From Tychonema litorale BBK16 (lineage in GTDB: Bacteria > Cyanobacteriota > Cyanobacteriia > Cyanobacteriales > Microcoleaceae), in NCBI RefSeq assembly GCF_021648855.1, contig NZ_JAKJHX010000065.1, positions 16,757 through 28,727 on the forward strand: a DNA stretch of 11,971 nucleotides, written 5' to 3'. A model generated the notes under the pieces. It was not told where the DNA came from. It did not search any database and worked only from the letters and a program-made list of their open reading frames with translations. Shown piece by piece: positions 149 to 11,905 of the stretch. Each line of letters starts with the position of its first letter. Position 1 is the stretch's first letter. The position numbers were made by a program, and so were the translations under genes.

Positions 149-742
149 ATGAACGATTTTGATTACATTTCGATCGCACTTTTGAACCAATACTCCTACT
201 GTCCCCACCGCTGTTGGCGAATGTCTTGCGCGGGAGAGTTTGCGGACAACCAGTATACCATCGAAGGGACGAGTTTGCACGATCGCGTTCATACTCTCAG
301 TCAAATCAACCGCGATGAAACTTGGCAGGTGCGGGCGATTTGGCTGAAGTCTGAAAAGTATATGCTGATTGGGAAATCGGATTTGATTGAATCAACGGAT
401 GGTGAATTGTATCCCGTCGAGTACAAGCGGGGGCGCAAGGGCGAATGGGATAACGACGAGTTGCAGGTTTGCGCGCAAGCCCTTTGTTTGGAAGAGATGA
501 CTGGAAAAAGTATTGCGACGGGATATGTGTATTACGCGCAGTCTCATCAGCGACAGTTAGTGGAGATTTCTGAGGAGTTGAGACAAGAGGCAATTGTGAC
601 TATTTCGGCAATTCAAACTTTACTGCAAACTGGCAAAATTCCTCCAGCCAATTATAGCAAACGCTGTCAAGGTTGCAGCCTTTATCAGCAATGTTTGCCC
701 CAAGCTGCTGAGAGAGTCCTGCGCTATCAAGAAGCTAATTAA
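149..742 (+). CDS. cas4: CRISPR-associated exonuclease Cas4
   Basis: Cas4 is a RecB-like iron-sulfur nuclease that works with Cas1-Cas2 to trim prespacers and define their PAM end before insertion. The 197-residue product shows the family signatures in order: C18 in YCPHRC, a motif I-like LHDRVH (H44), GKSDLIE (D78), the ExK catalytic motif VEYKRG (E91, K93), a Q-rich helix after it (Q106, Q110), and a C-terminal cluster C173-x2-C176-x5-C182 that with C18 should hold a 4Fe-4S cluster. The ATG at 149 is chosen because the open frame extends upstream only into repeat DNA, and because family members begin just before the YCPxRC motif. cas1 follows after 22 bp on the same strand. The protein appears intact. 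Confidence 0.93.
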   Translation: MNDFDYISIALLNQYSYCPHRCWRMSCAGEFADNQYTIEGTSLHDRVHTLSQINRDETWQVRAIWLKSEKYMLIGKSDLIESTDGELYPVEYKRGRKGEWDNDELQVCAQALCLEEMTGKSIATGYVYYAQSHQRQLVEISEELRQEAIVTISAIQTLLQTGKIPPANYSKRCQGCSLYQQCLPQAAERVLRYQEAN

Positions 743-764: not shown

Positions 765-1766
765 ATGGGAACACTTTATATCAATCAAGATGATGTGTTT
801 ATCGGGAAAACAGATGAACGGCTGAATGTCAAGGCAAAAAATCAAACGTTACAAGATGTGCCTTTAATTCATTTAGATGGAGTGGTGATTGTGGGACGGG
901 CGACTATTTCCCCGGCTGCGGTTGCAGAATTACTTCAACGGAAAATTCCTCTGACTTTTATCACGGATACTGGTCACTATTTGGGTAAGCTGGAACCGGA
1001 ATTGAGTAAAAACATTTTTGTTCGGAATGCTCAGTGGAAAGCGGCGGGGGAAACTCCCCAAGCTATTCATGTTGTCCAGGGTTTTATTCGGGGGAAATTG
1101 AAGAACTATCGCACGAGTTTATCTCAAACTCAGCGGGAACATTCCGAACTAAATTTAGGTTCGGCAATTACTCAGATTTCAAATGCGATCGCCAAACTTG
1201 ACAAAACTGACAACATTAACTCTTTGCGCGGACACGAGGGTGCTGGGAGTGCGGCGTATTTCGGAGTTTTCAACCAATTAATTCGCGCGGAAGGCTTTGT
1301 GTTTAAACCGCGACACCGCCCAGCTACCGATGCGGTGAATTCTTTGATGAATTTTGCTTACACGCTGCTACGTCACGATGTCCAAAGCGCAATTAATATT
1401 GTGGGATTTGACCCTTATTTAGGATACCTTCATACGCAGCGCTACGGCCGCGTGGGTTTAGCGTTTGATTTGATGGAAGAGTTCCGCCCGTTGGTGGCGG
1501 ATAGTGTAATTCTGAATGCGATTAATCGCCGGATTCTGACGCCGAATGATTTCACTGTGGAACCGCTGAGTAATGTGGTGCGACTGTCGGAAACGGGACG
1601 GAAAGAGTTTTTGAGGTTGTATGAAAAGAAAAAGCAGTCTGAGTTTAAGCATCCAGTTTTGAAGCGTAAGTGCACTTATCAAGAGGCTTTTGAGATTCAG
1701 GGGCGGCTGTTGGCGAAATATTTGATGGGCGAGATTGACAAGTATCCACCTTTAGTTTTGTACTAG
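765..1766 (+). CDS. cas1: CRISPR-associated integrase Cas1
   Basis: Cas1 is the metal-dependent integrase that, as a Cas1-Cas2 complex, inserts new spacers at the leader-proximal repeat. The 333-residue protein has the usual length, with an N-terminal beta-rich part (about 1-80) and the helical catalytic part. Conserved active-site positions are visible: E158 in LRGHEGAGSAAYFG, H223 in GFDPYLGYLHTQRYGR, and the acidic group D235/E238/E239 in LAFDLMEEFRP. A ribosome site GGGAG at 754-758 lies 6 nt before the ATG. The gene sits 22 bp after cas4 and 2 bp before cas2, so all three are probably co-transcribed. The sequence looks like the cyanobacterial type I-D/I-B Cas1 group, but the subtype call is inference. 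Confidence 0.95.
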   Translation: MGTLYINQDDVFIGKTDERLNVKAKNQTLQDVPLIHLDGVVIVGRATISPAAVAELLQRKIPLTFITDTGHYLGKLEPELSKNIFVRNAQWKAAGETPQAIHVVQGFIRGKLKNYRTSLSQTQREHSELNLGSAITQISNAIAKLDKTDNINSLRGHEGAGSAAYFGVFNQLIRAEGFVFKPRHRPATDAVNSLMNFAYTLLRHDVQSAINIVGFDPYLGYLHTQRYGRVGLAFDLMEEFRPLVADSVILNAINRRILTPNDFTVEPLSNVVRLSETGRKEFLRLYEKKKQSEFKHPVLKRKCTYQEAFEIQGRLLAKYLMGEIDKYPPLVLY

Positions 1767-1768
1767 AT

Positions 1769-2044
1769 ATGCACGTTCTGATTTCCTACGATATTTCCGA
1801 AGACAAGCGCCGGACTAAGATTCACAAAATGCTGAAGTCTTATGGGCAGTGGATGCAGTACAGTGTGTTCGAGTGTGCTGATTTGACTGAGACGCAATAC
1901 GCTAAGTTGCGATCGCGCTTAAACAAAGTCATTAAACCGAACGAAGACAGTATTATGTTTTTTCCGCTGTGCGCCTGCTGTCAAGGTAAAATTGAACGTA
2001 TTGGTGGGGTCGTTCCTGCCGATCGCACAATATTTTTTGCCTAG
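1769..2044 (+). CDS. cas2: CRISPR-associated protein Cas2
   Basis: Cas2 is the small ferredoxin-fold protein whose dimer bridges two Cas1 dimers and sets the spacer length during acquisition. The 91-residue product is full length. It starts with the beta1 strand MHVLISYDIS carrying the conserved Asp (D8), continues with the basic helix DKRRTKIHKMLKSYG and the Q-x-SVFEC strand, and ends with the usual IERIGG...TIFF tail. The ATG follows the cas1 stop by 2 bp, which suggests coupled translation. The stop codon abuts a nested inverted repeat that opens the leader, so the 3' end of the cas mRNA may be structured. Confidence 0.94.
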   Translation: MHVLISYDISEDKRRTKIHKMLKSYGQWMQYSVFECADLTETQYAKLRSRLNKVIKPNEDSIMFFPLCACCQGKIERIGGVVPADRTIFFA

Positions 2045-2151
2045 TTTCCGTGAACCGGTAGGTGTTAAAATAGGGGTATCAAATTTTTCGGCTGAAACTC
2101 ATATGCACCAAGAGTTTGATGCCCCTAGTCTGAAAAAACGATTCACGGAAA
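2045..2151 (+). repeat. Nested inverted repeat directly after the cas2 stop
   Basis: The outer arms are a perfect 10-bp pair: TTTCCGTGAA at 2045-2054 and TTCACGGAAA at 2142-2151. Inside them is a 12-bp pair with one mismatch: AGGGGTATCAAA at 2072-2083 and TTTGATGCCCCT at 2115-2126. The spacers between outer and inner arms are nearly equal (17 and 15 nt). As RNA this could fold as an interrupted hairpin covering about 107 nt; as DNA it offers two concentric binding sites. No run of T follows the right arm, so it is not a classic intrinsic terminator. Its role is unknown: transcript processing, attenuation or a leader protein site are all possible. Confidence 0.6.
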
Positions 2152-2204
2152 GTCTGAAAGCTTTGCAGGATAACGTTTTTGGAGTGAGTATGGAAAAGTG
2201 GCGG

Positions 2205-2234
2205 TTGACAAGTCGAAGGGTGGAATGGTACTTT
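2205..2234 (+). promoter_or_regulatory. Candidate pre-crRNA promoter
   Basis: A perfect -35 hexamer TTGACA (2205-2210) is followed after 18 bp by TACTTT (2229-2234). This -10 box matches TATAAT at only three positions but is preceded by TGG, an extended -10 feature. A transcript would start near 2241, about 55 nt before R1, which is typical for CRISPR leaders. The strong -35, the location and the strand support the call; the weak -10 keeps confidence low. Confidence 0.38.
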
Positions 2235-2296
2235 TGTTTTAGGTTCACAGAACTGTACCTTGAAAACCAAATAGAGCAAGGCTTCTGGAGCGGGCG

Positions 2297-5202
2297 GCCG
2301 CAATAAACCTAAATCCCTATCAGGGATTGAAACGCAAGAAAACATATGAGGTAAAAATGTCAGAATACCTTGCCGCAATAAACCTAAATCCCTATCAGGG
2401 ATTGAAACCAACGAAAAGCAGGAATGACTGTAAAAATAGTGGGCCGCAATAAACCTAAATCCCTATCAGGGATTGAAACTAACTCCATTTGCCTTGCTTT
2501 GAGTTCGGCAAACTTGCCGCAATAAACCTAAATCCCTATCAGGGATTGAAACATTTTTTTTCGGGCGAATTAAGGACAGAAATAACACCATAAGCCGCAA
2601 TAAACCTAAATCCCTATCAGGGATTGAAACCTGGTGTGGGTTTGCGCTTGGGGCTGGGCTTTTTGGGCCGCAATAAACCTAAATCCCTATCAGGGATTGA
2701 AACTTTGGCGTTGTTTCTGTGGCATTCGAGGGATATTGGGCCGCAATAAACCTAAATCCCTATCAGGGATTGAAACATCATAAAAGTGATATTAAGTGAT
2801 AGCAATGATAGCCGCAATAAACCTAAATCCCTATCAGGGATTGAAACATCACTTAAATCTTCTGGCGCTTTGGACGGATTTGCCGCAATAAACCTAAATC
2901 CCTATCAGGGATTGAAACCCTCTTTCTCCTCCCCCACCTGCAATTCAAACTGCCGCAATAAACCTAAATCCCTATCAGGGATTGAAACCAGTTATAAACC
3001 GTTTCTTATTAATCCTGCAACTGCCGCAATAAACCTAAATCCCTATCAGGGATTGAAACATGAAAAATCTGGGTCTTGCAAAGTATTTTTTCTCAGCCGC
3101 AATAAACCTAAATCCCTATCAGGGATTGAAACTTGGCGGTTCGCTACCGCCTTCAAATGAAATCTAAATTTCTAGCCGCAATAAACCTAAATCCCTATCA
3201 GGGATTGAAACTTAACTAAATTTCAGCAGGCTCTAAAAAGGAAGGCTCTAGGCCGCAATAAACCTAAATCCCTATCAGGGATTGAAACGTTTGAACCCCT
3301 GGTGTGGGCTTGCGCTTGGGTGCCGGTTTTTTGGGCCGCAATAAACCTAAATCCCTATCAGGGATTGAAACGTTTGAACCCGGCATGAACCCGTAACTAA
3401 ACTAACAGGAGCCGCAATAAACCTAAATCCCTATCAGGGATTGAAACCAGAACCTCGACTATCCAAAAACAACTATGGAAGGCCGCAATAAACCTAAATC
3501 CCTATCAGGGATTGAAACCGACAGCAGCCAGAAGCGCCTTAAATGATCCGAGCCGCAATAAACCTAAATCCCTATCAGGGATTGAAACCTAATCGTTCAC
3601 CCTCGGCATGGTTCAATGCGTAGCCGCAATAAACCTAAATCCCTATCAGGGATTGAAACCCATCACTGCTGGAACTTCTACTGCTTCCACTGCCGCCGCA
3701 ATAAACCTAAATCCCTATCAGGGATTGAAACTTGTCAGTCAAATCGACCGATTTAACTCTCGCGGTCTTCGCCGCAATAAACCTAAATCCCTATCAGGGA
3801 TTGAAACAGTAACAAGCTCCGGGCAGGCGATCGCATTCCGAGCCGCAATAAACCTAAATCCCTATCAGGGATTGAAACCAGTTGTCGCTGTTTTAGCCGC
3901 TAGTTTGGTTTTGTGCCGCAATAAACCTAAATCCCTATCAGGGATTGAAACGCGAAACCCATAAAGCCCAAAAAACCAAAATTAGCCGCAATAAACCTAA
4001 ATCCCTATCAGGGATTGAAACTGATTACGATACAATCGACAAAACGCTTATAGAGCCGCAATAAACCTAAATCCCTATCAGGGATTGAAACTCTCCAAAA
4101 AAAAAGATGACGATGTAGAGGCATTGGCGGCGCGCCGCAATAAACCTAAATCCCTATCAGGGATTGAAACCCGCCTTGATAAGTTGCTACAACACGCGAG
4201 GCCATGCCGCAATAAACCTAAATCCCTATCAGGGATTGAAACCCTGTTCCTAAGTACCACTTGTATTCCCCGGTTAGCCGCAATAAACCTAAATCCCTAT
4301 CAGGGATTGAAACAATGCTGTAAAAGTGTAAACAGTGTAAACAATGTAAACAAGCCGCAATAAACCTAAATCCCTATCAGGGATTGAAACTTTGCCTGAG
4401 TTAATCCACATAAGGACATCGCTGAGCCGCAATAAACCTAAATCCCTATCAGGGATTGAAACGCTATCTTGCTATCAATCCAGATACTATCCGTGTGAGC
4501 CGCAATAAACCTAAATCCCTATCAGGGATTGAAACAAGCACACCATCACAAGGCACTTTATGCACACTTTAGCCGCAATAAACCTAAATCCCTATCAGGG
4601 ATTGAAACCGATTTTGGATTGCCCTAATCGCCATTCACCCCACAAAGCCGCAATAAACCTAAATCCCTATCAGGGATTGAAACATAGCACCAGAAATATC
4701 AACACCTTTCAAGTCAAGCCGCAATAAACCTAAATCCCTATCAGGGATTGAAACATAGTATACTCAACCATAAAGTGATAGCGACCGCAGCCGCAATAAA
4801 CCTAAATCCCTATCAGGGATTGAAACGCTAGGCATCAAAAACAAGAAAACTCAGGCTACAGCCGCAATAAACCTAAATCCCTATCAGGGATTGAAACCAA
4901 AATATCAATCCTCCTTTTGGGATCTGGGGAGGCCGCAATAAACCTAAATCCCTATCAGGGATTGAAACTTACAATCGCATCCGCACATATTTCTAGGAAG
5001 GGGGGGAGGGGGTGAAGCCGCAATAAACCTAAATCCCTATCAGGGATTGAAACCGAGCTCTGCACGTCTCTCACCGATTAACGCGATCGCGCCGCAATAA
5101 ACCTAAATCCCTATCAGGGATTGAAACAACTTCGATTCTAGTCAGCCACAAGAGTCCTGCACCTGGCCGCAATAAACCTAAATCCCTATCAGGGATTGAA
5201 AC
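2297..5202 (+). CRISPR. CRISPR array, 40 repeats of 37 nt and 39 spacers
   Basis: Forty repeats of 37 nt were counted, all identical by eye. Each begins GCCGCAATAA, continues ACCTAAATCC and ends CTATCAGGGATTGAAAC. Repeat positions 16-22 (AATCCCT) and 26-32 (AGGGATT) pair in a 7-bp stem with a 3-nt loop, a Cas6-type hairpin, and the 3' ATTGAAAC would be the 8-nt crRNA handle. The 39 spacers total 1426 nt (mean 36.6, range 33-48). First repeat 2297-2333; last 5166-5202. The leader is on the cas2 side, so spacer 1 (2334-2371) is the newest. The repeat type and the cas4-cas1-cas2 order suggest type I-D, but no effector gene is present to prove it. Open frames across the array merely translate the repeat and are not proteins. 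Confidence 0.98.
3252..3410 (+). other. Irregular CRISPR unit: spacer 14 shares its first 10 nt with spacer 15
   Basis: Repeat 14 is 3252-3288, spacer 14 is 3289-3334 (46 nt), repeat 15 is 3335-3371 and spacer 15 is 3372-3410 (39 nt). Both spacers start with GTTTGAACCC. After those 10 nt spacer 14 has exactly 36 nt, which align without gaps and with matching ends to spacer 5 (2631-2666), with 30 of 36 positions identical. The unit repeat plus GTTTGAACCC (47 bp) is therefore directly duplicated around a normal 36-nt insert. Confidence 0.85.
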
Positions 5203-5360: not shown

Positions 5361-5762
5361 TTACGCAGGAAGCAAAACCGCATCAATAATGTGAATAACA
5401 CCATTATCAGCAGCAACATCGGGTGTTGTAACAGTAGAATCATTGATCTTGACGCCATTGGAAGCATCAATTTTTACAGTTGAACCTTCAACAGTAGTAG
5501 CTGATTTCAACTTGACCACATCAGCAGCCATCACTTTGCCTGAGACTACATGATAAGTCAGGATTTTTGTTAGCTTAGGAATATCCTTAAGCAATGCTTC
5601 AACTGTACCTGCGGGAAGCTTAGCAAAAGCTTCGTCAGTAGGGGCAAAAACTGTGAAGGGTCCAGGGCCTTTGAGAGTATCTACTAAACCCGCAGCAGTA
5701 ACGGCAGCAACCAGGGTTGTGAAAGAGCCAGCCTTAACGGCAGTATCAACAATGTCAGCCAA
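5361..5762 (-). CDS. Single FAS1 (fasciclin) domain protein
   Basis: The product is one FAS1 domain, a fold linked to adhesion and surface roles in other organisms; its function in cyanobacteria is not settled. It shows the FAS1 H1 motif [11 protein letters not shown], the central YHVV, and the H2 motif [11 protein letters not shown] near the C-terminus. I choose a TTG start at 5762 because it gives [14 protein letters not shown], the usual family N-terminus and a 133-residue length, and because AAGGTGA lies 5 nt upstream (5768-5774). A GTG at 5795 in the same frame would add 11 residues without a better ribosome site. No signal peptide is visible with either start, which is odd for a surface-type domain. 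It is probably monocistronic, with 185 nt of AT-rich DNA upstream. Confidence 0.9.
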
Positions 5763-5947
5763 GAGAGTCACCTTGTTTTGTAATATGCTTATCACCGTAA
5801 CGCTAAAAAGTAAATTTAGCTACCTAATTTCTTATGCCTTTAGTTCAGTTTCTTTTTTGTGATTTGTTCATAAATATCACTCTAAAGATAGATGACAAAA
5901 TATTAGTAATAGGCATCATATTTATTCACGATAAATAACAGTTGTTT

Positions 5948-6394
5948 TTATACTCTCAACACAGGTCTTTCAGGATTTTCAGGATTAGGAACTAGACGCT
6001 GATTCTTGCAATCTACCAGCAAATCCAAAGTTTCCAACACAGTTTGACCAATTAACACCATATCACCTAAAACCATCGCCGCCTCGATCGTCTCCCGTCC
6101 TTCCATTTCAATCAGAATAGGCCCGGTCAATCCCACTGCTTCTTGTCTCCCATCAGCATATTTAGCTATTTCCTGACTCCGAATTCTTAAGCCCAAGTGT
6201 TCGCAGACTTCTACAGGAATTGCTGTGCGTACAGCACCAGTATCTATCAGTCCTTCTGCTTCATACACGCGCAACAAATTTGGATTGAGCAATCCTCGAC
6301 TCACTAACTCTTCATCAATTGCATTTGTTAGCTTGACTTTAACTCTAACTGCGCCCATGTTTTTGCTGATTTGACTCCGATCGCAATTTATCAT
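5948..6394 (-). CDS. Retropepsin-like (clan AA) aspartic protease
   Basis: A small, single-domain protein of the clan AA aspartic protease type found widely in cyanobacteria, active as a dimer in related families. The active-site motif is EGLIDTGAVRTAIP (D51-T-G), followed by a hydrophobic strand with the flap region, and near the end LIGQTVLETLDLLVDCKNQRLVPNP, the usual second conserved block. The ATG at 6394 has GAGG 8 nt upstream. An ATG at 6358 would give MGAVRVKVKLTNAID, closer to the start of many relatives, but lacks a good ribosome site, so the start is uncertain. The substrate is unknown. No antitoxin or partner gene is adjacent. Confidence 0.8.
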   Translation of the reverse strand: MINCDRSQISKNMGAVRVKVKLTNAIDEELVSRGLLNPNLLRVYEAEGLIDTGAVRTAIPVEVCEHLGLRIRSQEIAKYADGRQEAVGLTGPILIEMEGRETIEAAMVLGDMVLIGQTVLETLDLLVDCKNQRLVPNPENPERPVLRV

Positions 6395-6616: not shown

Positions 6617-7651
6617 CTAATCTTCAGCATAGATATACCGATACAATTCACTAGGATCAGGCTCAGGGCTTTTCTCAGCAAAATCTACTGCATCATCAAT
6701 TACTGCTTCAATCTTCTTTTCGATCGCCTTTAATTCGTCAGCAGTCACTAAATTGCGATCGATCAAATCCGCAGCCAACTTCTTAATCGGATCGCGAGGG
6801 AACCAATACTCCTTCTCTTCCTTAGAACGTAACTCATCAGGATCTGCCAAAGAATGCCCGCGAAAACGATAGGTCAAAGCCTCAATTACAGTCGGCCCTT
6901 CCCCAGCCCGTGCCCGCGCCACAGCTTCTTTTGCTACTTCCCGCACTGCCAAAACATCCATCCCGTCAACCTCAACTCCAGCCATGCCAAAAGCATGAGC
7001 CTTCTTGTAAATCAACGGATCAGAAGTAGCACGTTCATGGGACATTCCGATCGCCCATTTGTTGTTTTCTACCACATAAAGAATCGGCAACTTCCACAAA
7101 GCAGCCATATTCAAACACTCAAAAAACTGGCCATTATTCGCAGCACCATCGCCAAAAAAACAAGCAGTTACGCCATCGGAACCCTCATCTCCCAAAGCCT
7201 CACGCCGATACTTAGATTGAAAAGCCGCCCCCGTTGCTACAGGAATTCCCTCAGCCACAAAAGCATAGCCTCCCAAAAGTCGGTGTTCAGCAGAAAACAT
7301 ATGCATCGAACCACCACGGCCCTTCGAGCAACCAGTCTCCTTCCCAAACAATTCCGCCATCACCTCCCGCGCCGGCACACCCGCACTCAAAGCGTGAACG
7401 TGGTCGCGATAAGTGCTGCTAACATAGTCAGTGCTATCCCGGCGCATCGATCGAATCACCCCAGTAGAAACAGCCTCCTGGCCGTTGTACAAGTGAACGA
7501 AACCAAACATCTTGCCCCGGTAATACATCTCAGCGCACTTGTCCTCAAAAAAGCGCCCCAAAACCATATCCTCGTACAGCATCAAACCTTCATCGCGGGA
7601 AATAGTTACGCTACTTGCGTCAAAAGGTGGTAAAGTCCGTTCCTGAACCAT
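6617..7651 (-). CDS. pdhA: Pyruvate dehydrogenase E1 component, alpha subunit
   Basis: PdhA pairs with the beta subunit (not in this window) to form the thiamine-diphosphate-dependent E1 enzyme, which decarboxylates pyruvate and passes the acetyl group to E2 lipoamide. The 344-residue protein is full length. It shows the entry segment YRDH (81-84), the cofactor motif from GDG (167-169) to VVENN (NN 196-197), and the loop [14 protein letters not shown] (262-275) equivalent to the phosphorylation loop of mitochondrial E1 alpha. The ATG at 7651 gives [15 protein letters not shown], typical for cyanobacterial PdhA, with only a weak AGG about 13 nt upstream. It is transcribed away from ftn2 from a shared intergenic region. 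Confidence 0.95.
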
Positions 7652-8006
7652 AAATAATTAATACCTGATAAGTATTATTTGAACTCTCGCTTTTAGTCGA
7701 TCGGGCGAGTCAACGACCCTAACTATACCAAGAATCGGTCGATCGGCTTTGATCCGCTTTGTAGGGCGATCGACACCTCGTGACCATTAACATACTTAAC
7801 TAACAAACTGCTATTCTTTGAAGAGTGGGGCAGGACGCGCACCTCACTATAAAATGCCGTCAAGGGAAACGAAGTATCTTGAAGGAAGTTCTTGATATCC
7901 ATAACAGGACTCAGAAGCCCAACCGATCATTATCATTTTTGATTTGATATGGGAGCGTCACTTAGGATAGGCTAATTCAGTCGCTAGCGCTTTGGGGAAG
8001 TGGACA
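7652..8006. promoter_or_regulatory. Divergent pdhA-ftn2 intergenic region
   Basis: This 355-bp stretch holds the promoters of pdhA (leftward) and ftn2 (rightward); no gene is visible. GTCGATCGG occurs twice (7697-7705 and 7738-7746), and an inverted CGATCGAC is at 7767-7774, all on the pdhA side. They could be an operator, but GATC-rich motifs are abundant in cyanobacteria. TATAAA at 7848-7853 is a possible rightward -10 box with no matching -35 at normal spacing. Nothing is firm enough to place a promoter. Confidence 0.3.
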
Positions 8007-10310
8007 GTGCTCATTCCACTAGATTATTACAGGATTTTGGGTCTACCGATTCAAGCTACTGCCGAACAGTTGCAGCAAGCTCATCGCGATCGCACTTTAC
8101 AACTTCCACGCAGGGAGTATTCCGAAGTTGCGATCGTCGCCCGCAAACAACTGCTCGACGAAGCCTGCGCCGTTCTGTCAGACTCAGACGGGCGTAAAGC
8201 TTACGATGCCAGTTTTTTAATCAAAACTTACGATCGCGAATCAGAAGCAGGAATATTAGCCAAGCATCAGAGGTCAAAAACCTCACCAAGCACGGCCACA
8301 GTCCTGCAAGACTCAGAAGAAACAGACTGGCAAGAGTCCGGGGTTTTAGACGCTACTCCAGACCCCCACACTCCAAGTATTGAAATTGATGACAACCAAT
8401 TCGTAGGAGCCCTGCTCGTACTGCAAGAACTGGGAGAATACGAACTCGTACAGAAACTGGGTCGCCCCTATCTCAACAATGGCAGCACCGGGATCGAAGA
8501 AGGGCGCTTCGGCGACCCCCAACTCGTACGGCCCGACATAGTCTTAACCGTAGCCCTGTCCTGCTTAGAACTCGGCCGGGAACAGTGGCAGCAAGGTCAA
8601 TACCAGAATGCAGCCAAGTCACTAGACGCAGGCCAAGAACTGCTGCTGCGCGAAAGCCTATTTCCAAGCGTGAGGGGTGAAATGCAAACCGATATATACA
8701 AACTACGTCCGTACAACATCTTAGAGTTACTATCCCTCCCCGAAGATCAAGTCTCGGAACGCCGTCAAGGGCTGAAAATCCTGCGAGAAATGCTCGAAGA
8801 AAGGGGTGGCATCGATGGTTCCGGGGATGATCGATCGGGTTTGGGCATAGAAGAGTTCCTGCGATTTGTCCAGCAACTACGGAAACACCTCACCAGCAGT
8901 GAGCAACAGGCCCTATTTGAAGTAGAAGCTGGCCGCCCCTCCGCAGTAGCCACCTACCTCTCTGTCTACACCCTGTTAGCTCAGGGATTTGCGGCCAGAC
9001 AGCCCTCAATGATCCGCCGCGCCAAGCTGATGTTGATGCAATTGGGCCGTCGCCAAGACGTTCACCTCGAAAAAGCTGTATGTTCCCTGCTACTCGGTCA
9101 AACAGAAGAAGCCAGCAGATCCCTCGAACTGAGTTCGGAAAAAGAACCTCTCGCCTTCATTCGAGAAAATTCCCAAGATTCTCCCGATTTGTTGCCGGGG
9201 CTATGCTTGTACGCCGAACACTGGCTACAAGAAGAAGTGTTTCCGCACTTCCGGGATTTGTCACAGCAGTCAGCTTCCTTGAAAGATTACTTTGCCGATT
9301 CCAAAGTACAAGCCTACCTAGAAGCATTGCCACTTGATGCAGAAAACGCCAACGAATGGGTTGTTGTGCAACCTCGCTCTGGTGGCAAGCCCCAAGTGCG
9401 ATCGCCACAAACAACCTCACTCCACCCATCCCCAACAGATTCTGGGCGAGCGGCTACAGTCACCTTGACCCCCGTCGCCGCAGCCCAATCCACACCTGGG
9501 CCAAGCCCCAAATATGAAGGGACAGCAGCCACGCCCAAACCCCCAGCCAGTGTTGAGGGCCCTACACCTACCCCGATCGGATCGATACCGAAGAATCGGC
9601 GACAACCCCATTCACCGCGTCGCAGTTCCAGGAATAGCGCTGGGTTTATGGGTAATTTGGTCGATCGGGCTAGGACACTTGGTTCACAAATCTCCACCCA
9701 AGTCAAGTCAATGCCTCGAAATAGGCTGGGATTGCTTCTAGCGGCAATTTTTCTGAGCCTGTTCATTCTGTGGTTAATCTTCAGTATTTTGGGTAACATC
9801 GTCCAAGCTCTCTCAGGCCCATATCTACAAGGAGAACAAGCCTTAGTCAGCATCGAAGCACCACCGATTGAAATCCCTGCATTACCCCCCGCAGTCCCTG
9901 AACCGAGCGCCCCCGCTCCAGAATCGGGTTCCATCACTGAACAAACAGGTGAGCAAATCATTCAGGGTTGGCTGTCGGCAAAAGCAGCAGCCTTGGGCCC
10001 CAACCATGCTGTCGATGAGTTGAACCAAGTGCTGACGGAACCGGCTTTGTCTCGCTGGCAATTGATGGCGGAAGCTCAACAACGAAATAATGCTCACCAG
10101 CGTTATACACACAAGCTGCAAGTCACCAAGGTAACGGCAAATCCGACTAATCCCGATCGGGCGGAAGTAGAGGCGCAAGTTACCGAAAAGGCCGAAGTGT
10201 TCGATCGTGAACAGCTAGTTACTTCCCGCAACGAAAACCTCCGAATCCGCTACGACTTGATTCGCCAAGATGGACAATGGCGAATTATGGATTGGCAAGT
10301 TATGAAGTAG
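8007..10310 (+). CDS. ftn2: Cell division protein Ftn2/ZipN (ARC6 homologue)
   Basis: Ftn2 (ZipN, Cdp) is the cyanobacterial ancestor of chloroplast ARC6. It anchors and organises FtsZ at the inner membrane early in division. The 767-residue product opens with [27 protein letters not shown], a J-domain-like segment (about 1-65) in which I see no HPD tripeptide. A helical middle region follows, then a Pro/Ser/Thr-rich basic linker, one membrane span (about 574-599, [19 protein letters not shown]) and a C-terminal ARC6-IMS-like domain (about 649-767, from [15 protein letters not shown] to [10 protein letters not shown]). The start chosen is GTG at 8007, which matches the family N-terminus [11 protein letters not shown] and has GGAAG 6 nt upstream; a TTG at 7992 would add five residues. 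Its stop codon overlaps a heptamer repeat. Confidence 0.93.
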
Positions 10311-10593: not shown

Positions 10594-10726
10594 GAGAAGA
10601 GAGAGATTAATACAGGACGATGAAGAGAGGATTTGATATAACAAACCACAAATAACAAACCACAAAAAACAAGATACAATAAGAACCACAAGTTCAAGCA
10701 ATCGACCTTATTTGGCAGTCAGTGCT

Positions 10727-11905
10727 ATGCAATCTACAACAAATCAGTCCGAGACAGAGCCGACAATGGACGCGCCCAAACACGGCTTGCCCGTTACCAT
10801 CATTACAGGATTTCTCGGCAGTGGCAAAACAACCCTGCTCAACCACATCCTGACCAACCAGCAAGGTTTAAAAACAGCAGTTTTAGTCAACGAATTTGGC
10901 GAAATTGGCATCGATAACGAACTCATCTTGAGTACGGATGACAATATGATCGAGCTGAACAACGGCTGTATTTGCTGCACGATTAATGAAGATTTGGTAA
11001 ATGCAGTTTACAAAGTTTTAGAACGTCAAGAAAATCTCGATTATCTAGTAGTAGAAACCACTGGGCTTGCCGATCCACTACCAGTAGCTCTGACTTTTTT
11101 AGGCCCTGAATTGCGAGACTTGACTCGTCTCGATTCTATTGTTACTGTAGTAGATGCGGCAAATTACAGTTTGGATTTGTTCAATTCTCAAGCAGCTTAT
11201 AGTCAAATTGCTTACGGCGATATTATTGTCCTCAATAAAACAGATTTAGTTGAAGAAGCAGAGTTGGATTTGTTGGAAGTTAAGATTCGCGATGTCAAAG
11301 AAGGTGCTCGAATTTTGCGAACAGTAAACTCGCAAGTTCCACTGCCCCTCGTTCTGAGTGTAGGATTGTTTGAGTCTGACAAATATTTCCAATCTGAAGA
11401 AACTACTAGCAGTCACGACCATCACGATCATGCTCATCACGATCATGGCCATCATGATGAACATAATCATGACCATCATGATGAACATAATCATGACCAT
11501 CATGATCATGGCCATCATGACCATGCCCACCACGATCACGGCCATCATGACCACGCTCATCACGACCATCCTGACCATTTAGAAAATGACGGATTTACGT
11601 CAATTTCATTTCAGAGCGATCAGCCGTTTTCTCTGAAAAAGTTTCAATATTTCTTAGACAACCAATTGCCAACAAATGTGTTTCGGGCGAAAGGGATTAT
11701 GTGGTTTGACGAAAGTCCTAAACGGCACATTTTTCACTTGAGTGGCAAGCGATTTTCGATGGATGATACTGAGTGGAAAGGTGAGCCGAAAAACCAGCTT
11801 GTGCTGATTGGTCAAGGTTTGGATATCGAGGGTTTGCGATCGCAACTAGAAAACTGCATCTGTCTGTCTTCACCTAATCGCGGCAAAGGATTCGGGAAAG
11901 ACTAA
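10727..11905 (+). CDS. CobW/COG0523-family metal-chaperone GTPase with His-rich insert
   Basis: Members of this G3E GTPase family insert or traffic metals (zinc, cobalt, nickel); here zinc is a guess from the family. The 392-residue protein has Walker A GFLGSGKTT (28-36), the metal-binding C81-I-C83-C84 within NNGCICCTIN, Walker B ETTGLADP (110-117), and NKTD for guanine (170-173). A His-rich stretch at 230-284 has 31 His in 55 residues, alternating with Asp, Gly and Ala, and would bind or store metal. The C-terminal CobW_C domain follows (about 290-380). ATG 10727 is chosen; TTG 10712 and ATG 10766 are other options, none with a good ribosome site. No Zur-like site is evident upstream. Confidence 0.9.
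   Translation: MQSTTNQSETEPTMDAPKHGLPVTIITGFLGSGKTTLLNHILTNQQGLKTAVLVNEFGEIGIDNELILSTDDNMIELNNGCICCTINEDLVNAVYKVLERQENLDYLVVETTGLADPLPVALTFLGPELRDLTRLDSIVTVVDAANYSLDLFNSQAAYSQIAYGDIIVLNKTDLVEEAELDLLEVKIRDVKEGARILRTVNSQVPLPLVLSVGLFESDKYFQSEETTSSHDHHDHAHHDHGHHDEHNHDHHDEHNHDHHDHGHHDHAHHDHGHHDHAHHDHPDHLENDGFTSISFQSDQPFSLKKFQYFLDNQLPTNVFRAKGIMWFDESPKRHIFHLSGKRFSMDDTEWKGEPKNQLVLIGQGLDIEGLRSQLENCICLSSPNRGKGFGKD
11414..11578 (+). repeat. DNA repeat encoding the His-rich segment
   Basis: The 165 bp that encode the His-rich stretch are themselves repetitive. A 24-bp unit coding EHNHDHHD is duplicated perfectly and in tandem at 11459-11482 and 11483-11506. Further units coding HHDHAHHDHG recur with synonymous changes. 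Perfect identity of the 24-bp pair suggests a recent slippage expansion, while the other units are older. Confidence 0.85.

Follow-up and report, generated by a model that had tools for sequence, protein, structure and literature searches.

The CRISPR Locus of the Window

The stretch of Tychonema litorale BBK16 DNA analyzed here (11,971 nt in all; hereafter the window) carries the genes of a CRISPR adaptation module followed by a long array, all on the forward (+) strand. The module consists of cas4 (149..742; TIGR00372, 176 bits against a cut-off of 65), the cas1 gene of type I-D, Cas1d (765..1766; TIGR04093 cas1_CYANO, 402 bits, cut-off 385), and cas2 (1769..2044; TIGR01573, 65 bits, cut-off 24.5). 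The window was assigned to type I-D from these three adaptation genes, with Cas1d scoring above its curated cut-off and Cas4 and Cas2 encoded on either side of it; the first-pass annotation of this DNA had likewise placed the array in a system with Cas4. The leader is defined by its position between cas2 and the first repeat (2045..2296, + strand); by eye, its end (AACTGTACCTTGAAAAC...) resembles the stretches preceding the arrays of three other loci of our survey (L048, L211, and L154). The array itself (2297..5202, + strand) comprises 39 spacers between 40 identical repeats of 37 nt and, with the leader upstream, its spacer 1 is regarded as the newest. Farther along are genes whose products we take, by resemblance, to be a fasciclin-domain protein (5361-5795), a retroviral-type aspartyl protease (5948-6394), a pyruvate dehydrogenase E1 alpha subunit (6617-7651), an ARC6-like division protein (7992-10310), and a CobW-type GTPase with a long His-Asp-rich tract (10712-11905). 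A second, small array in the same genome (G000 contig C11:37824-38059) holds four copies of a repeat variant, CCTACCAGGGATTGAAAC.

Spacers 14, 15, and 5 of the Window Array

Within the array, repeat 14 (3252..3288, + strand) is followed by spacer 14 (3289..3334, 46 nt), repeat 15 (3335..3371), and spacer 15 (3372..3410, 39 nt). As the first-pass annotation had observed, with correct coordinates, the two spacers start with exactly 10 common nucleotides, GTTTGAACCC, located at 3289..3298 and again, identically, at 3372..3381; among the other adjacent pairs of the array, none has a common start of at least 5 nt. The other 36 nt of spacer 14 (3299..3334, + strand) align with spacer 5 (2631..2666, + strand; 36 nt) over the full length, without gaps, and with both ends coinciding, as had been described, although what had been called a match amounts to 30 identical positions of 36 (83%). 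In one reading frame the two sequences encode KKPSPKRKPTP and KKPAPKRKPTP, and by eye four of the six changes fall in third positions. The alignment with spacer 5 thus points, independently of the common start, to a junction at 10 nt in spacer 14, in agreement with the position proposed earlier, and the 36 nt beyond it match the mean spacer length of 36.0 in the pooled arrays described below.

Spacer 14 is not the longest of the array; spacer 37 has 48 nt and no start in common with spacer 38, so that length alone proves nothing. The chance of a common 10-nt start somewhere in the array had been put at 4 in 100,000; the arithmetic is right (38/4^10), but the empirical rate is higher, since spacers acquired again from one source, or from related ones, have starts in common. 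Among 203,906 non-adjacent pairs, re-acquired spacers included, common starts of at least 10 nt occur at a rate equivalent to 0.33 per 6,083 pairs, or about 2 in 1,000 for the 38 pairs of the window. The significance of the match between spacers 14 and 15 therefore rests on its recurrence in other genomes.

Survey of Type I-D-Like Arrays

Arrays were collected from loci with the window's repeat in the genus, from 80 loci around cas1 on genome contigs, and from regions around Cas1d genes in the order. They were located by script and oriented by the 3′ end of the repeat or, where this was ambiguous, by the strand of cas1 (as for L149). The final pool holds 164 type I-D-like arrays from 147 loci, with 6,871 spacers in 6,695 adjacent pairs, where type I-D-like denotes a repeat ending like GGGAYTGAAAC or GGAATTGAAAC. 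The arrays of L207, L223, and L277 were read with a 37-nt repeat, and those of L187, L209, L225, and L231, whose repeats end in GGAATTGAAAC and are of the same kind as L277, were counted in the pool; the comparison group of other repeat types includes L184 as well as L158, whose I-D-like repeat was called with one base too few. Four badly called arrays of the first survey (L050, L063, L078, and one of L117) were left out, as were repeats called at less than 26 nt, 10 duplicate arrays, and spacers outside 24-70 nt or containing N; 43 of 221 loci, and 6 of 20 in a later set, yielded no array. In each adjacent pair, the leader-proximal member is termed the newer spacer. A pair was counted as a full footprint if the newer spacer was at least 40 nt long and retained 31-39 nt after subtraction of the common start, limits that were set after the first cases had been seen.

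The first-pass annotation had pointed to other arrays as the place to look for common starts, and the pattern recurs there: full footprints occur in 16 of the 6,695 adjacent pairs, vs. a mean of 0.39 (0.392; maximum 4) in 1,000 shuffles of spacers within arrays. For all pairs with 7-19 nt of common start, whatever their spacer lengths, the count is 19 vs. a shuffled mean of 1.90 (maximum 6 in 1,000 shuffles). The newer spacers of the footprints are spacer 14 of the window, L149 67, L154 11 and 36, L159 66, L167 8, L170 82, L181 25, L185 52, L198 59, L211 95, L246 10, L249 112, L263 5 and 13, and L277 28. They are 40-49 nt long, begin with 7-13 nt in common with the older neighbor, and retain 32-38 nt after subtraction (mean 34.7, vs. 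36.0 for all spacers, in cases selected for 31-39). It is the newer spacer that is lengthened in all 16 pairs and the older one in none. Accordingly to length, common starts of 7-19 nt were found for 9 of 68 newer spacers of at least 45 nt and 6 of 165 of 42-44 nt, falling to 1 of 1,162 at 38-41 nt and 3 of 5,300 at 37 nt or less. The 233 newer spacers of at least 42 nt separate into 217 with 0-4 nt in common with the older neighbor, none with 5-6, and 15 with 7-13, together with one whole re-acquisition. The natural rate is about 0.24% per spacer (16/6,695; 95% interval 0.14-0.39%).

The common starts of the 16 footprints measure 7, 7, 8, 8, 10 (four cases), 11 (five cases), 12, 12, and 13 nt. 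Eleven of the 16 thus lie at 10-12 nt, about one helical turn, and 12 at 10-13 nt; both L263 cases measure 12 nt, and 10-11 nt prevails elsewhere. Most of these offsets are upper bounds, since bases identical by chance prolong the common start, and the four cases at 7 and 8 nt fall short of a full turn. The footprints are spread over 14 loci with 14 different repeat sequences, from 13 genera and 11 families, and five of these loci are on contigs of about 4-5.4 Mb, a size that speaks against assembly artefacts. The repeat end GGGACTGAAAC occurs at three of the loci (L149, L159, and L263); the cas1 genes of L149 and L159 are only 33-35% identical to that of the window, and all three loci lie at matches above the Cas1d cut-off.

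The counts were accumulated over successive data sets. In the first survey (2,418 pairs) the window pair provided the only footprint. The next set contained 12 adjacent pairs with at least 8 nt of common start, vs. 0.57 expected from non-adjacent pairs, and two of these 12 are whole spacers taken up twice. Eleven footprints come from the first large set (4,745 pairs), already collected when the pattern emerged, four from 40 regions fetched afterward (1,208 pairs), and one from 24 regions (542 pairs) fetched after predictions had been written down, in which about 1.3 were expected. This last set agrees with the rate but is small and by itself a weak test; it provided the footprint at L277 28, which counts only with the array read with a 37-nt repeat, as well as a misfit at L277 89. 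The footprint at L246, with its 40-nt spacer, lies below the 42 nt set in these predictions. Counting the arrays of L187, L209, L225, and L231 in the pool enlarges the first two sets by about 200 pairs without any further case; with these arrays placed among the other types, the counts are 16 of 6,495 for type I-D-like arrays and 0 of 1,389 for the others.

Controls and Misfits

The mirror image of the footprint, in which the end of a spacer resembles the stretch now upstream of the array over at least 7 nt, was found in none of 6,595 spacers in 153 arrays, as is required of a reaction that is accurate at the leader and errs at the spacer side, although the comparison carries less weight for old spacers, since leaders change. 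At a threshold of at least 6 nt, 3 of 6,262 spacers gave leader-side hits; one lies in masked bases and two stem from a mis-called repeat, and all three were rejected. A search for 3′-truncated repeats as traces of undershoot, over seven long spacers and the upstream stretches, gave no clear case; some degenerate repeats were seen.

In other repeat types (mostly cyanobacterial), no footprint was found among 1,181 pairs in 55 arrays. For newer spacers of at least 42 nt, the difference between type I-D-like arrays (15 of 233) and other repeat types (0 of 183) has p = 2e-4, and restriction of the footprint to type I-D is suggested; on a per-pair basis, significance is not reached (p = 0.15).

Three of the 19 pairs with a common start do not fit, having newer spacers of 36-37 nt (L149 30, L177 33, and L277 89). 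Spacers 33 and 34 of L177 are of normal length and have their first 14 nt in common, perhaps from related protospacers.

Protospacer Searches

Searches against phages and plasmids recovered no protospacer for spacer 14 (at most 63% of the query covered) or spacer 15 (best matches of only 17 nt), and the whole window array searched against phages matched nothing better than E 0.02, in weak or repeat-like hits. In viral contigs, neither exact nor codon-degenerate patterns for spacers 14/5 and 15 had a match, and in 388 genomes of the order the core common to spacers 14 and 5 occurs only in these two spacers themselves. Likewise, no protospacer was found for the footprint spacers L154 11, L167 8, L249 112, and L185 52 in the one or two collections searched for each, and L211 95 had one weak match among plasmids (E 0.2). 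Searched locally against the fetched loci, 15 footprint pairs returned two 16-nt matches and, for the window pair, spacer 5. With no protospacer in hand, the window alone cannot decide on an overshoot, nor is the junction proved from a source sequence; the argument below is therefore built on the arrays.

A Probable Overshoot at the Spacer Side

We consider it very probable that Cas1-Cas2 acted correctly at the leader side and went about one helical turn too far at the spacer side, so that the repeat and a further 7-13 bp were copied. This is the reading put forward in the first-pass annotation, and it is supported by the other arrays, which fit its predictions both in number (16 vs. 0.39) and in direction (16 to 0). 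In the window, spacer 15 would have adjoined the leader when spacer 14 was acquired. Cas1-Cas2, with Cas4, would have joined one end of the prespacer at the leader-repeat junction, as usual, and the other (PAM) end 10 bp inside spacer 15, after base 3381, instead of at the repeat-spacer junction; gap filling would then have duplicated 47 bp (repeat plus 10 bp) rather than 37. The predicted product is a repeat, GTTTGAACCC joined to a new spacer of 36 nt, a second repeat, and GTTTGAACCC with the rest of spacer 15, which is the arrangement observed. Repeat 14 would accordingly represent 37 bp of the leader-side copy of the duplicated 47-bp unit, completed by the putative copy at 3289..3298, while repeat 15 and the original start of spacer 15 would form the spacer-side copy, and 3299..3334 would be the part actually acquired. 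An overshoot of the second, PAM-end attack places the copied bases at the 5′ side of the newer spacer, as seen. The arrays themselves show the common start, the lengthening of the newer spacer only, and the recurrence of both; what we infer from these patterns is that Cas1-Cas2 was the agent, that its attacks came in this order, and that the helical turn caused the step. The seed of the spacer 14 crRNA, next to the 5′ handle, is likely to have been copied from another target, and spacer 14 is probably a dead memory.

Long uptake offers a simpler account, in which spacer 14 was taken up at 46 nt and its 10 common nucleotides are due to chance or to related protospacers with the same start. Long spacers free of a footprint are indeed commoner (218 of the 233 newer spacers of at least 42 nt, as well as spacer 37 of the window), homologous spacers sometimes start at different offsets (L046/L053, L080/L088, and L128 21/22), and the reading frame is open across the junction in spacer 14. 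Chance, however, gives 0.39 full footprints in shuffles where 16 are seen, and related protospacers would neither give a newer member of at least 40 nt in 16 of 19 pairs, when only 9% of spacers are that long (p about 1e-14), nor always leave the older member unlengthened; we therefore regard uptake at full length as very improbable. Recombination, or template switching during replication, between neighboring repeats could also have put the start of spacer 15 before spacer 14 after acquisition, and arrays do rearrange via repeat misalignment (PMC8047081). Such exchange might explain L048 20/21 and L211 178/179, whose last 14 and 10 nt, respectively, are common while the spacers are not lengthened; overshoot does not explain these pairs, and they show that some other process also links neighbors. 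They are, however, the only two pairs in the pool with at least 7 nt of common end, whereas recombination predicts both directions and both ends, and the direction seen is 16 to 0. Recombination leaves insertions near 10-12 nt unexplained and would seem to need a return jump without clear homology, all of which makes it improbable as the source of the footprint.

Within the overshoot reading, a special case would be that the integrase mistook the start of spacer 15, GTTTGAACC, for the repeat end, GATTGAAAC, to which it is identical at 7 of 9 positions. The look-alike ends at position 9, whereas the boundary given by spacer 5 lies at 10, and for the window we judge such a decoy highly improbable. 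As a general cause it was rejected: over six end positions tried, the older spacers of the other 15 cases reach 2-5 of 9 at best.

Relation to Known Systems

To our knowledge, type II-A systems operate without Cas4, unlike the system of the window. A precedent comes from a type II-A repeat mutant of Streptococcus thermophilus, in which the second-site attack fell eight bases into the spacer and the spacer was partially duplicated; this aberrant product is stated not to have been observed in the wild type (PMC6895254). As in the window, the leader side was accurate in that mutant, which was tested in vivo, and part of the old spacer was duplicated, but that case concerns mutated repeats and a single offset, whereas here the repeats are intact, the type I-D-like arrays are natural, and the offsets range over 7-13 with a cluster at 10-12 (PMC6895254). 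In the rulers of types I-E and I-B, as outlined in the same source, the second attack falls at a fixed distance from a repeat motif, and the site was moved there by altering the repeat, in contrast to the present arrays, in which the repeat is unchanged and the site appears to move by about one turn (PMC6895254). For type I-D, with the same Cas4-Cas1-Cas2 module as the window, the model begins with the non-PAM end at the leader side, after which the PAM end is joined at the repeat-spacer junction; the most frequent spacer length is 35 nt, and second-site overshoot is not mentioned in the accessible part of that review (PMC10212523). A literature search that covered few subscription papers, some sources only in part, found no report of the footprint in natural arrays. 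We rate what is new here as a natural variant of a known second-site reaction, for which the known precedent is a repeat mutant.

These footprints make natural mistakes of Cas1-Cas2 readable from existing genomes, with their rate, their direction (spacer side only), and their step size, and they fit the idea that the leader side is recognized by sequence and the far side placed by distance. Going one step farther, we somewhat favor the view that type I-D Cas1-Cas2 can, on rare occasions, use another spacer-side register about one turn beyond the repeat, in about 1 of 400 natural acquisitions, with each event writing a readable footprint and a memory with the wrong seed. If so, public arrays would log the errors made in nature, and they would allow the accuracy of the repeat ruler to be measured lineage by lineage. 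In practical terms, of the long type I-D-like spacers about 6% (15 of the 233 newer spacers of at least 42 nt) probably carry bases that do not come from the invader, and such bases mislead searches for protospacers and PAMs.

Other Relations Between Neighboring Spacers

Several sequences in the surveyed arrays were taken up twice with the same 5′ end and different 3′ ends, either as adjacent spacers (L053 66/67, L189 62/63, L240 39/40, and L288 99/100) or as near neighbors (L048 14/16 and L077 85/87), a pattern that a fixed PAM side would predict. In L128 21/22 and L109 11/12, adjacent spacers overlap with their starts shifted by 6 and 16 nt, respectively, and these overlaps probably derive from neighboring positions of one source.
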